From contig NC_044018.1 of the NCBI RefSeq assembly GCF_900496995.4, positions 6,596,501 to 6,660,500 of the forward strand: DNA of 64,000 nt, in the 5' to 3' direction. Of this stretch, positions 38,780 through 62,699 are shown piece after piece; the first letter of the stretch is position 1, and the number at the start of each line of letters is the position of its first letter. The position numbers were made by a program, and so were the translations under genes. The notes under the pieces are model-generated. The model was not told where the DNA came from, searched no databases, and saw only the letters and a list, made by a program, of their open reading frames with translations. Source of the DNA: Aquila chrysaetos chrysaetos (taxonomy: Eukaryota; Chordata; Aves; Accipitriformes; Accipitridae).

Positions 38780-38863
38780 ATGTTGTTTCACAGCACTGGT
38801 TACCTGCTCCTCTGCCTTTATGGTATTCCCACCTGCTTCTCCATTTTCTGGCTTGGGATCAGG
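38780..38863 (+). other. Proposed signal-peptide exon of the meprin alpha-like gene
   Basis: Starts ATGTTGTTTCACAGC and encodes a hydrophobic stretch [20 protein letters not shown]. This aligns with the leader of the second copy around YGIP / YGTP. The second copy's donor (TCTGTAAGTAG) is not present at the matching point; instead AGG|GTGAGA at 38863/38864 keeps phase 0 with exon 2. The resulting intron, 38864-38918, is only 55 bases, shorter than most vertebrate introns. Confidence 0.55.
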
Positions 38864-59714: not shown

Positions 59715-62699
59715 TTCTCCAGAAAATATATCATTGAATCCTCTCAACTTATCTGTGTTGTATTCAGTAGCCACAAACTTGGAACACCAGAAAAATGATA
59801 CAGATGTTGGACTTTAGTGTGATGTTATTCTGAATGGAGTCCTGGGGCTGGTCTGATATCATTACAGCCATTTCCTATATTCTGTAGGTTTCTATCCATA
59901 CTATAAAATCCCATTTTCCAGTTAAGCAAATTTGTTAAGTAGAAAACTTCTCCTGAAGCCATTTGAAAGATGTCTGCTTCTCTAAAGGGAAATAAGGTTG
60001 ATAAGATTGTGCTCTGTGTGTGCGTTTGTGCACATCTGTTCCTGCATTAGTGATCTGCAACCCCGAATTTAATAGCATGGTAGCAGTTTTTGCCATAATG
60101 CATTTCCATAAACTGCAATGCAGATAGCTGGCTGGTAAGAGAAGAGATCCCCTATTCATGTTGCTGTTGACAGAAAAGCTAATAAGCCTATTAGGTTTCA
60201 GAGAAAACACACAAGACAGCTTAATTAAATTGCCACCTTGCTGTATGGTTTATTTCTTTTAAAAACGCATAGAAGTTACCCTTTGCCTGGCAATGATCTT
60301 AAAAGCCAGCATCATTACACATGCCTGTGTCCTGCCAAGATTTTTTCCCCAGCTATAAAAAGTGATAGCACTTAATTATCAAGATTCTCACCCTTTTTGA
60401 TAAAAGGTGTAATCTGAGTATCTGTAAAATCCCGAGCTCTTATACAATCTCAAGCCTTGGACTGAAGACCTTTGGGCCCAGAATGGACTTGCAGAAGGGA
60501 AGGGCAGTCTTTACACAGAGAAACTGTAATTATCCACCAGCACAGTCATGTGCTGTTTCTTCTTAGAGAAAGAATGCCAAATATTCTGAAATTCTGAATA
60601 TTTGTATTTTGCCAAATACAAAAAATATTTTTTGTAGTTGGAGATGCTGGTAATCTCTCTTTACTTCCATACCAAAGTATATGAAACGGTTCCCTCTCTC
60701 TGCCCTAGCAGACACCTTCATAAAGAAAAACTTCCTGTAAGGACAAATTATTTCACCAAGAAACCCTGAGAAGCATGTTTCCAAAAGACATTTCAATAAA
60801 AATATCATAGCAATATTTTCAACCTAGGGTAAAAACATCTTCCCCCCCACCCCGATTCCTAATGTATTCTTTGCTTCAAAGAAGAACAGAACCTGGAGGC
60901 ACTCCAGGAATCTCATACCTGTCCGCTTAATGAGCGGAGGGCTCCAGGGCCTTTCCTTGCCCATATATGATCTAATATCCTGGTAAACATTTGCATCAAT
61001 ATTCACAGGCTCTGGAATGGAGTACATTAATCCTTAAATTTAATCCTTCAGGATGCTTACTCTTAGACCATCTAATCTGACCTCCTATATATCCCATTCT
61101 TTACAGCTCATTGATATTTGATTTTGAACTTACTGAAGTCACATGTGAGGGTGCAGAACTGGAATCTGAAGACACTACTTTGTTGTTCAAATGGCTTCAT
61201 AAAAAAAATCTTGCTAAATTTGAATATTTTGTAAAGTAATTTCTTTCAGGTATATCAATTCTGCCTCAGAAAACTGTATCCGAGGGGTCGTGCTAAAGCT
61301 GTTTCCTTTCCAGTCTCTAAAAATGAAGGTCTTTTCTGTTCTTTTACCAGGACAAGAGCACAATTTTCTGAAGTACAATGACAGCTTCATCACTGATCTG
61401 AACACCCCGTATGACTACGAATCATTGATGCACTATGAACCATTTTCATTTAACAAAAATGAAAGCAAGCCCACAATCACAGCGAAGATACCAGAATTTG
61501 ATAACATAATTGGGCAACGTCTAGACATCAGTGCCATTGACCTGGAAAGACTGAATCGCATGTATAACTGCAGTAAGTCATAATTTAACTGTGGCAAACT
61601 GTTTCTTTGTTTATACTTGAGCCTGGCTGGTTCACCTCTCTAACGTCTCTAAAACCACAAAAACTCTTCTCAGGTGCTCTTGAGGAGGTATGGGAGACAA
61701 CCCGTGCTGTAAAGACCCAAACTGTTTATTCCCTTCTCATCCCTCTCTTTGGCTCTGTTAACTGTCATTACTTTTCCAAAACTCCAATTAGTCAATGAAA
61801 GTCAATCCATTCACATCTTTTCTTCCACATTGCTCCTAGGGGTTCAGACATGTGGTTATGTTCTGCTGGTGTGTGGACAGCTTCATTGTGCTTTTGTAAG
61901 ATGAATGCAACAGTACTTTATCCTCTTTGACTAACATTTGGTTTTAATTAGGTTATTTTGCACCTGAGCTTGGCTAAGTCTACAGTCCAACACAGTAGTT
62001 GGTTGCTAAGCCGGTTGAAGATGTTACCACTACATGTGATTGTAGTGAGAAGTTATTGTCCCCATGGATCTGCCAACAGAAGCATCTACTTGCAGGCAAA
62101 CTCAGCTGAACTGGCCTAAGGTGACTGGTTAGACTTTGTTTGAAGTGGAAGAACAGTGCTCATGCTCATCAAGCAGAGAAGTGAGCCATGAAGAACAATA
62201 AACTCCAGCCGAGGAATGGTTAAATACACGACCACCACTATTCACAAAGGGACTTGTCTCTCCAAGGCTTACAAGCAGGCACAAAGACCACCACCATCAG
62301 TCACCGTGTTTCAGCTGCCGTGTAGGAGTTTGTTAACCTTCTGCAAAGTGGTCAGATGTTGTTATCTTTATGCAGGGAATCCCTCCAGGAATCAAATATT
62401 TCCTCTTTTGAGTCTTTGGGCTCACATCTGCTGTCAGTTGTCTTCTCTACATGATGACCATACTAGTGTAAACAAAACCCCCCAAAATTAGAGCAGAAAT
62501 TTTAATGAGATACTTCTTTGGAGGTAACCATGTGTGCATTTTTTTTCAGCTTCAACTCACACTTTTTTGGACCAGTGTTCTTTTGAGTTTGAAAATATCT
62601 GCGGCATGATTCAGGGCGCCAGAGATGATCTAGACTGGGTCCATCAACAGAGCAGTGCTACAGGGCAGGAAGACCACACACTTTCTGGGCGCTGTAGAG
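54703..62699 (+). CDS. MEP1A: Meprin A subunit alpha, first nine coding exons (runs off window)
   Basis: Astacin-family zinc endopeptidase of kidney and intestinal brush border and secretions. Exons: 54703-54771, 54857-54881, 54977-55030, 55883-55923, 56034-56112, 56431-56548, 58098-58273, 61351-61572, 62550-62699, all in phase, 311 residues so far. Order: signal peptide ([14 protein letters not shown]), propeptide with aspartate-switch FQGD (56-59), astacin domain with [13 protein letters not shown] (His 157, 161, 167; Glu 158), Met-turn SLMHY (Met 214, Tyr 216), end of the astacin domain at MYNC (261), then the start of the MAM domain ([20 protein letters not shown]). The ATG has a strong Kozak context and a TATA box upstream. 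It resembles human MEP1A more closely than the first copy does (Met-turn, [13 protein letters not shown] loop, MAM start), so I take it as the orthologue. MAM remainder, MATH, EGF and transmembrane exons must lie beyond 64000. Confidence 0.95.
57018..57112. repeat. Intronic repeat, copy A (before the zinc-binding exon of MEP1A)
   Basis: About 95 bases beginning 'tggctcttctttaatgaaag' and including 'ctctcaaaatctgaaagg' and 'ctcagagattctgg'. It is a near-identical direct repeat of 58638-58731. Confidence 0.85.
58638..58731. repeat. Intronic repeat, copy B (after the zinc-binding exon of MEP1A)
   Basis: Begins 'tggctcttctttaatcaaag' and follows copy A at 57018-57112 with a handful of substitutions. 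The pair flanks the 176-base exon at 58098-58273 in direct orientation. Confidence 0.85.
59677..59713. repeat. Uninterrupted poly-T tract of 37 bases
   Basis: Pure T-run in MEP1A intron 7. Length in the true genome may differ because such runs slip in replication and sequencing. Confidence 0.9.
61030..61105. repeat. Possible ancient CR1-like fragment
   Basis: 'gaccatctaatctgacctcc' followed by 'tatatatccc' resembles the end of old sauropsid CR1 copies. Strongly degenerate and short. Confidence 0.35.

Follow-up and report, generated by a model that had tools for sequence, protein, structure and literature searches.

The window analysed here, 64,000 nucleotides of the Aquila chrysaetos chrysaetos genome (NC_044018.1, positions 6,596,501 to 6,660,500), contains two meprin-alpha genes, copy 1 and copy 2, which lie head to tail on the plus strand, with 2831 nt between the stop codon of copy 1 and the ATG of copy 2. 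Gene models of both copies were rebuilt from the DNA, and all of their introns have GT-AG borders. Copy 1 is complete (38780..51871), with 13 exons of 84, 25, 54, 41, 76, 118, 176, 222, 147, 216, 474, 174 and 44 nt that encode a 616-amino-acid frame closed by a stop at 51871. Copy 2 is represented by exons 1 to 9 (54703..62699), of 69, 25, 54, 41, 79, 118, 176, 222 and 150 nt, after which the gene runs off the window. Exons 2, 3, 4, 6, 7 and 8 are equal in length and phase between the copies, and exons 5 and 9 are each one codon apart. The first-pass annotation had proposed a tandem duplication of meprin alpha, in the form of a plus-strand, head-to-tail pair less than 3 kb apart with these exon lengths and phases, and the rebuilt models, together with the domains and the meprin-alpha match described below, bear this out; its end point, 62699, is the end of exon 9 of copy 2 rather than of the gene. 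A tblastn search with copy 1 and partial copy 2 for further meprin copies gave, beyond these two genes, no match with an E-value below 2. The features of the locus are as follows.

23996..24232, plus strand: ankyrin exon of an ANKRD66-like gene, 5' of the meprin pair (synteny anchor)
38780..38863, plus strand: copy 1 exon 1, start codon and signal peptide, the least certain exon of copy 1 (donor AGG/gtgaga; differs from the Cariama model)
38919..38943, plus strand: copy 1 exon 2 (gene model)
39055..39108, plus strand: copy 1 exon 3, prodomain (gene model)
40833..40873, plus strand: copy 1 exon 4, prodomain with FEGD motif (gene model, residue comparison)
40960..41035, plus strand: copy 1 exon 5, activation site Arg-Asn at 40966..40971 (gene model, residue comparison)
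41900..42017, plus strand: copy 1 exon 6, astacin domain (gene model, Pfam)
43426..43601, plus strand: copy 1 exon 7, 11-residue zinc site at 43508..43540 (gene model)
43809..44030, plus strand: copy 1 exon 8, containing the SVLHY Met-turn, Leu codon 43886..43888 (gene model)
44929..45075, plus strand: copy 1 exon 9, MAM start and Cys equivalent to C308 (gene model, Pfam, residue comparison)
48479..48694, plus strand: copy 1 exon 10, MAM and Arg equivalent to R372 (gene model, Pfam, residue comparison)
49028..49501, plus strand: copy 1 exon 11, MAM/MATH (gene model, Pfam)
49664..49837, plus strand: copy 1 exon 12, MATH (gene model, Pfam)
51828..51871, plus strand: copy 1 exon 13, terminal, 14 residues and stop (gene model; tail nearly identical in two of the six archosaur models from the database)
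54703..54771, plus strand: copy 2 exon 1, canonical MEP1A (gene model)
54857..54881, plus strand: copy 2 exon 2 (gene model)
54977..55030, plus strand: copy 2 exon 3 (gene model)
55883..55923, plus strand: copy 2 exon 4 (gene model)
56034..56112, plus strand: copy 2 exon 5 (gene model)
56431..56548, plus strand: copy 2 exon 6 (gene model)
58098..58273, plus strand: copy 2 exon 7, zinc site (gene model)
61351..61572, plus strand: copy 2 exon 8, Met-turn SLMHY (gene model)
62550..62699, plus strand: copy 2 exon 9, MAM start, gene continuing past the window (gene model)

The proteins of the two copies are 65% identical over 308 amino acids (BLASTP). By Pfam, copy 1 has the three domains Astacin, MAM and MATH, and the partial copy 2 has Astacin and the beginning of MAM. 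The Astacin matches have E-values of 7.6e-62 and 1.9e-67 in the two copies, while the MAM match of copy 2, a domain cut by the window end, scores 24.6 bits, just below the curated cut-off of 26.4. Compared with solved structures, copy 1 scores 805 bits against human meprin alpha (PDB 7uab) and 545 bits against meprin beta, and bit scores and trees together place it in the alpha rather than the beta lineage. Copy 1 shares with human meprin alpha the prodomain, the astacin, MAM and MATH domains, the activation site, C308 and R372. Meprin beta (MEP1B) has the same domain order up to MATH, but human MEP1B is only 46.9% identical to copy 1 and carries a Thr where R372 stands.

A duplicated assembly or haplotype of one locus, the alternative that the first-pass annotation had itself named, is so improbable that it can be set aside. 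When the two loci were compared by blastn, six matches of 72-87% identity fell on exons 3, 5, 6, 7, 8 and 9, the introns gave no alignment, and of 62 four-fold sites 39 carry different bases; this exon-only similarity and the divergence at silent positions rule out a single locus. In addition, other species carry orthologues of both copies. Over 278 codons, 23% of first, 19% of second and 51% of third positions differ, so both copies have been under constraint since the duplication. Judged by the aligned codons, the substitution pattern is typical of two genes that parted very long ago and both stayed constrained at the protein level. Copy 2 is the orthodox bird MEP1A.

Unusually, meprin alpha is synthesized as a membrane protein and only then freed by furin. 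The domain order of copy 1 is prodomain, astacin, MAM and MATH, after which a stop 44 nt into exon 13 follows directly on the MATH domain and closes the protein, with neither an EGF domain nor a membrane anchor. In canonical MEP1A, this same point is followed by an inserted stretch, then by an EGF domain and a membrane anchor, and human meprin alpha is described as continuing into a furin site, the EGF domain and the anchor (PMC9581967). Most long (L) database models resemble human meprin alpha in this EGF-membrane tail, whereas copy 1, a short (S) form, stops after MATH. When seven long-form tails were searched against the DNA between the copies, no EGF or membrane stretch was found: apart from exon 13 itself, no match was better than about E 1. 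The spacer holds a single polyadenylation signal of the AATAAA/ATTAAA type, an ATTAAA at 53037, 1.2 kb past the copy 1 stop.

Among the 59 sequences aligned for the trees, the furin-type pattern R-x-[KR]-R after residue 400 is present in 24 of the 28 sufficiently long L rows, with four L rows also lacking it, and in none of the 28 S rows, copy 1 included. Furin-dependent shedding is therefore not a trait of copy 1, which has neither a furin-type motif nor an anchor to be shed from. The transmembrane region given as a meprin trait by Marin (2015, PMC4545420) is likewise absent, while MAM and MATH are present. As predicted from its sequence, copy 1 is thus a meprin-alpha paralogue without an anchor and not a canonical meprin. 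It much resembles the recombinant meprin alpha used for cryo-EM, a construct cut so as to lack the EGF and transmembrane parts (PMC9581967). Related database models vary in their last residues. Two of the six archosaur models, Cariama (P0001) and Apteryx (P0019), end almost like copy 1; the alligator model ends in FEGIVS, that of Strix continues into other sequence, and those of Ceuthmochares and Anas stop earlier. Squamate S models end in a different short tail, FEVVEDPGSVL or close to it. No EGF domain is listed for the six archosaur S models or for the squamate S models compared with them.

The catalytic and assembly residues of copy 1 are largely retained. The zinc site HEXXHXXGXXH is intact, as are the FEGD motif of the prodomain and the activation Arg-Asn, which corresponds to the human cleavage site between R65 and N66. 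All 12 human ectodomain cysteines are present, including C308, and so is R372. C308 is found in 13 of 14 sauropsid S rows, and R372 in 13 of 14 sauropsid and 10 of 14 fish S rows. In the human enzyme, these two residues hold together the dimers and the helices (PMC9581967).

The one active-site departure lies in the Met-turn, which reads SVLHY instead of SxMHY, so that the methionine that is a hallmark of metzincins is missing. Leucine occupies this position in all seven archosaur S rows and methionine in the remaining 52 of the 59 rows; a snake protein outside this set (P0057) also has Leu. Copy 1 belongs to the astacin family (M12A) by descent and by Pfam score, with this hallmark departing. 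The Met-turn methionine has been called absolutely conserved in this enzyme class, and in the same account its change to Leu had a minor effect in MMP-2 and compromised the kinetics of protease C (PMC1266349). From the substitution itself, the Leu could reduce the activity of copy 1.

Such a change raises the question of whether copy 1 is merely left over from a working gene, as a decaying pseudogene or a non-catalytic pseudopeptidase. Along with the loss of the methionine, this reading would account for the small number of bird S proteins (five clusters among the matches listed) relative to the many L proteins, and for the pigeon, in which only an 80-amino-acid S piece is seen, fused to L. 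It is nevertheless improbable, given that the 616-amino-acid frame is intact with canonical splice sites, that the zinc ligands and all cysteines are kept, that copy 1 is 92.8% identical to the Cariama protein over 609 amino acids, and that the same Met-to-Leu change was minor in MMP-2, though not in protease C (PMC1266349). The first-pass annotation had seen in copy 1 a divergence suggestive of a new role. The missing EGF-membrane tail and the Met-turn Leu agree with this, while the preserved catalytic, activation, dimer and helix-contact residues do not, and neither does its pace of change: over the same 586 columns, copy 1 is 77.5% identical to the alligator S form, compared with 74.2% between barn-owl and alligator MEP1A, and has thus changed no faster than the long form. 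With its residues kept and its rate unremarkable, copy 1 would more readily be a soluble enzyme under conservation than one altered in recent times.

The distribution of S forms was assessed from three protein searches, in which the best 120 of 1815, 1540 and 1570 hits, respectively, were examined. Among the matches listed, orthologues of copy 1 were found in birds (Cariama, Strix, Ceuthmochares, Anas and Apteryx), the Chinese alligator, many squamates and the axolotl. The NCBI models of Cariama, Alligator sinensis, lizards and snakes named 'meprin A subunit alpha-like' are orthologues of copy 1 by tree, the names being automatic. Among the listed matches from mammals, turtles, frogs and songbirds, none was an S form, as judged by length, EGF domain and identity. 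The axolotl protein, the only amphibian S form found, was taken from a long gene model (P0027) after trimming of unrelated flanking sequence, and was kept out of the trees until trimmed. The axolotl S and L genes are each on a contig of 1,298,128,260 bases, and thus most likely on one chromosome. An S-then-L order is visible in fused models of the fish Labeo, Xyrichtys, Metynnis and Channa and of the lizard Phrynosoma, and the long model of the pigeon starts with its 80-residue short-form piece.

Copy 1 is 62.9-92.8% identical to the S forms of Python, Anolis, alligator and Cariama. Further identities were computed on shared alignment columns. Over 508 such columns, the identity of copy 1 is 70.5% to axolotl S, 66.6% to Anolis S, 61.6% to barn-owl MEP1A, 58.0% to human MEP1A and 59-62% to the sauropsid L rows, the partial copy 2 excepted. 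In the 220 columns covered by copy 2, copy 1 matches axolotl S at 77.7% and copy 2 itself at 71.8%.

Trees were built from a 59-row set, including 55 of 162 proteins, which was thinned to 38 rows and then extended to 39 with axolotl S and to 40 with an outgroup; fused or odd models (P0003, P0006, P0008, P0009, P0013, P0047 and P0064) were left out, as were others for thinning. In the 59-row tree, the 14 sauropsid S rows, copy 1 among them, form a clade (support 100/100), and copy 2 falls among the bird L forms. In the 39-row tree, the sauropsid S forms have axolotl S as their sister (100/100), and axolotl L groups with tetrapod L (100/99). A sauropsid-only duplication, modelled by forcing sauropsid S and L together, was rejected by the AU test (dlnL 77, p 9.4e-5 with 59 rows; p 0.0015 with 38 rows; p 0.009 with 39 rows including axolotl S). 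Grouping tetrapod S with amniote L gave p 0.016 without axolotl S (38 rows) and p 0.088 with it, the latter short of formal rejection, although the species tree and the 100/100 S clade argue against this grouping.

A lineage-specific tandem duplication, in birds or in sauropsids, after which copy 1 diverged rapidly, would suit a head-to-tail pair within 3 kb, as tandem copies are often young. It is very unlikely, however, since the three AU tests above rule out a sauropsid-only event, S forms exist in alligator, squamates and axolotl, and copy 1 has not outpaced the long form in its distance from alligator. The S clade that includes axolotl, together with the identities to axolotl S, indicates on these alignments that the duplication is older than the amphibian-amniote split. 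The direction implied by the first-pass annotation, that of a bird novelty, is therefore not supported, while its remark that human has one MEP1A is not contradicted, no mammalian S form being among the matches listed. Given so early a duplication, the S gene was most likely lost in mammals, and it may also have been lost in frogs, turtles and songbirds. In combination, the locus very probably holds an ancient tandem pair, in which copy 2 is the orthodox MEP1A and copy 1 a short meprin-alpha paralogue ending after MATH.

Ray-finned fish also have an S form, named 'tandem duplicate 1' in several species, and an L form. The fish 'meprin A alpha tandem duplicate 1' (about 600 amino acids) resembles copy 1 in being short, in lacking the EGF and membrane part and in lying upstream of the long form in fused models, and many of these proteins have a DLTPLI-x-EVPV-like tail, as copy 1 does. 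Unlike copy 1, they keep the Met-turn methionine, and they are only 53.5-59.9% identical to it (14 fish S rows, shared columns), compared with 57.3-62.8% for L forms, partial copy 2 aside. Two meprin alphas per genome, alpha1 and alpha2, are described in zebrafish, as here (PMC2809112); three MEP1A-like genes were counted there by Huxley-Jones (2007, PMC1867822). The peptide used for the zebrafish alpha2 antibody matches the L part of the Labeo fused model at 14 of 18 positions, and the alpha1 peptide reaches at best 7 of 14 in cyprinid S and 9 of 14 in sturgeon L, which assigns alpha1 to neither clade.

Without an outgroup, the branch separating all S from all L forms has support of 94/93 (38 rows) and 92/87 (39 rows), which favours orthology of tetrapod S and fish S, as yet unproven. 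With human MEP1B as outgroup, support is 68/29 for the joint S branch and 64/0 for the L branch (59 rows). When axolotl S is also included (40 rows), the free search nests S forms within L forms, while a tree keeping all L forms together is 3.8 lnL better than that search (p 0.647); a root from this single sequence is unstable, and no claim here rests on it. One old duplication is the simpler, if unproven, reading of the fish and tetrapod pairs, because gene order and truncation point are common to both groups. Bony vertebrates would then have begun with two meprin-alpha genes, one anchored and shed by furin and the other, just upstream, constitutively soluble. Ray-finned fish, squamates, crocodilians and some birds would have kept the soluble enzyme, in archosaurs as a natural metzincin with a Met-turn Leu, and mammals would have lost it and come to rely on furin shedding. 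We hold this full scenario tentatively, at a little short of an even chance.

In raw identity, fish S forms are not nearer to copy 1 than L forms are, making such a bony-vertebrate pair less likely and an independent origin likelier. That tetrapods (or lobe-fins) and ray-finned fish each duplicated the gene in tandem and truncated one copy, yielding look-alike pairs, is a real possibility, if also one that we would not expect to prove correct. AU tests gave p 0.364 for tetrapod S with tetrapod L, 0.195 for S with sarcopterygian L and 0.097 for a ray-fin-only duplication, all compatible with separate events, as are the low outgroup-rooted supports. Diagnostic columns at the 70% level are divided (two for S versus L, one for tetrapod versus fish, two crossed) and too few to decide. 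Against separate events stand the S-versus-L branch found without an outgroup, and the order and truncation point that bird S forms have in common with many of those in fish, beside a DLTPLI-x-EVPV stretch.

Whichever origin applies to the fish pair, copy 1 is best read as a putative constitutively soluble meprin alpha. It would be secreted as a soluble zymogen with no need of release by furin, and a trypsin-like enzyme could activate it by cutting at the conserved Arg-Asn. The enzyme may then form disulphide-linked dimers through C308, probably build helical oligomers (filaments) through R372, and act on substrates outside the cell, like the mammalian meprin alpha after its shedding. A sister gene born soluble would offer a natural comparison between anchored and free meprin, and would help to explain the purpose of the furin step. 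Similarly, a Leu in an otherwise intact active site is a natural test of the Met-turn residue called absolutely conserved (PMC1266349).

A single MEP1A beside a single MEP1B is given as the usual complement, and additional copies are reported for many fishes and for Xenopus laevis (Marin, 2015, PMC4545420). In the open-access literature, as covered by titles and the opening of abstracts, no description of a sauropsid or tetrapod S form as an old separate gene was found among the papers listed. In birds and reptiles, the name 'MEP1A' may denote either of two old genes, and comparative studies that assume a single gene might mix both, for example a selection scan on the branch of the ancestral archosaur (PMC8119460).

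Upstream of the pair and on the same strand, at about 22.5-24.2 kb of the window, lie the ankyrin exons of the ANKRD66-like gene. A snake gene model (P0064) fuses an ankyrin piece of such a gene to a short meprin. We take the gene to be ANKRD66, and assume this to be the neighbour of MEP1A in human as well.

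Among the matches listed, the bowfin Amia contributed three MEP1A-like proteins (P0068, P0122 and P0103), two of the short form, which lacks the EGF and membrane part of meprin alpha, and one of the long, canonical form, and the contigs that carry them all have the same size, 64,379,224 bases. In the 59-row protein tree, the two Amia short proteins were placed in separate fish subclades, so among fish the short form may already represent two anciently separated genes. Two short fish forms, P0127 from Chanos and P0139 from Labeo, have Met at the position after the third zinc His, which is Glu in the other 57 of the 59 rows (HEXXHXXGFYHE or close).

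Several repeats lie within or between the two eagle meprin genes, the short copy 1 and the canonical copy 2, or elsewhere in the window:

6241..6529 and 47418..47708, + strand, interspersed repeat, two copies, 94-95% alike
57012..57091 (intron 6 of copy 2) and 58632..58711 (intron 7 of copy 2), direct repeat of 80 nt, its two units 88% alike
52455..52676, 39-bp minisatellite, within the spacer that separates copy 1 from copy 2

The interspersed repeat may be an endogenous-retrovirus LTR, judging by its appearance; its second copy sits inside intron 9 of the copy 1 gene. Stretches related to the minisatellite are found at 33951..34104 and, inverted, at 28248..28337.

The window also holds a gene for a U3 snoRNP protein in a GC-rich stretch:

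13931..14488, + strand, IMP3, complete, single exon, matching human IMP3 (7mq8, E 9.8e-74)

Human IMP3 is located on a different chromosome.
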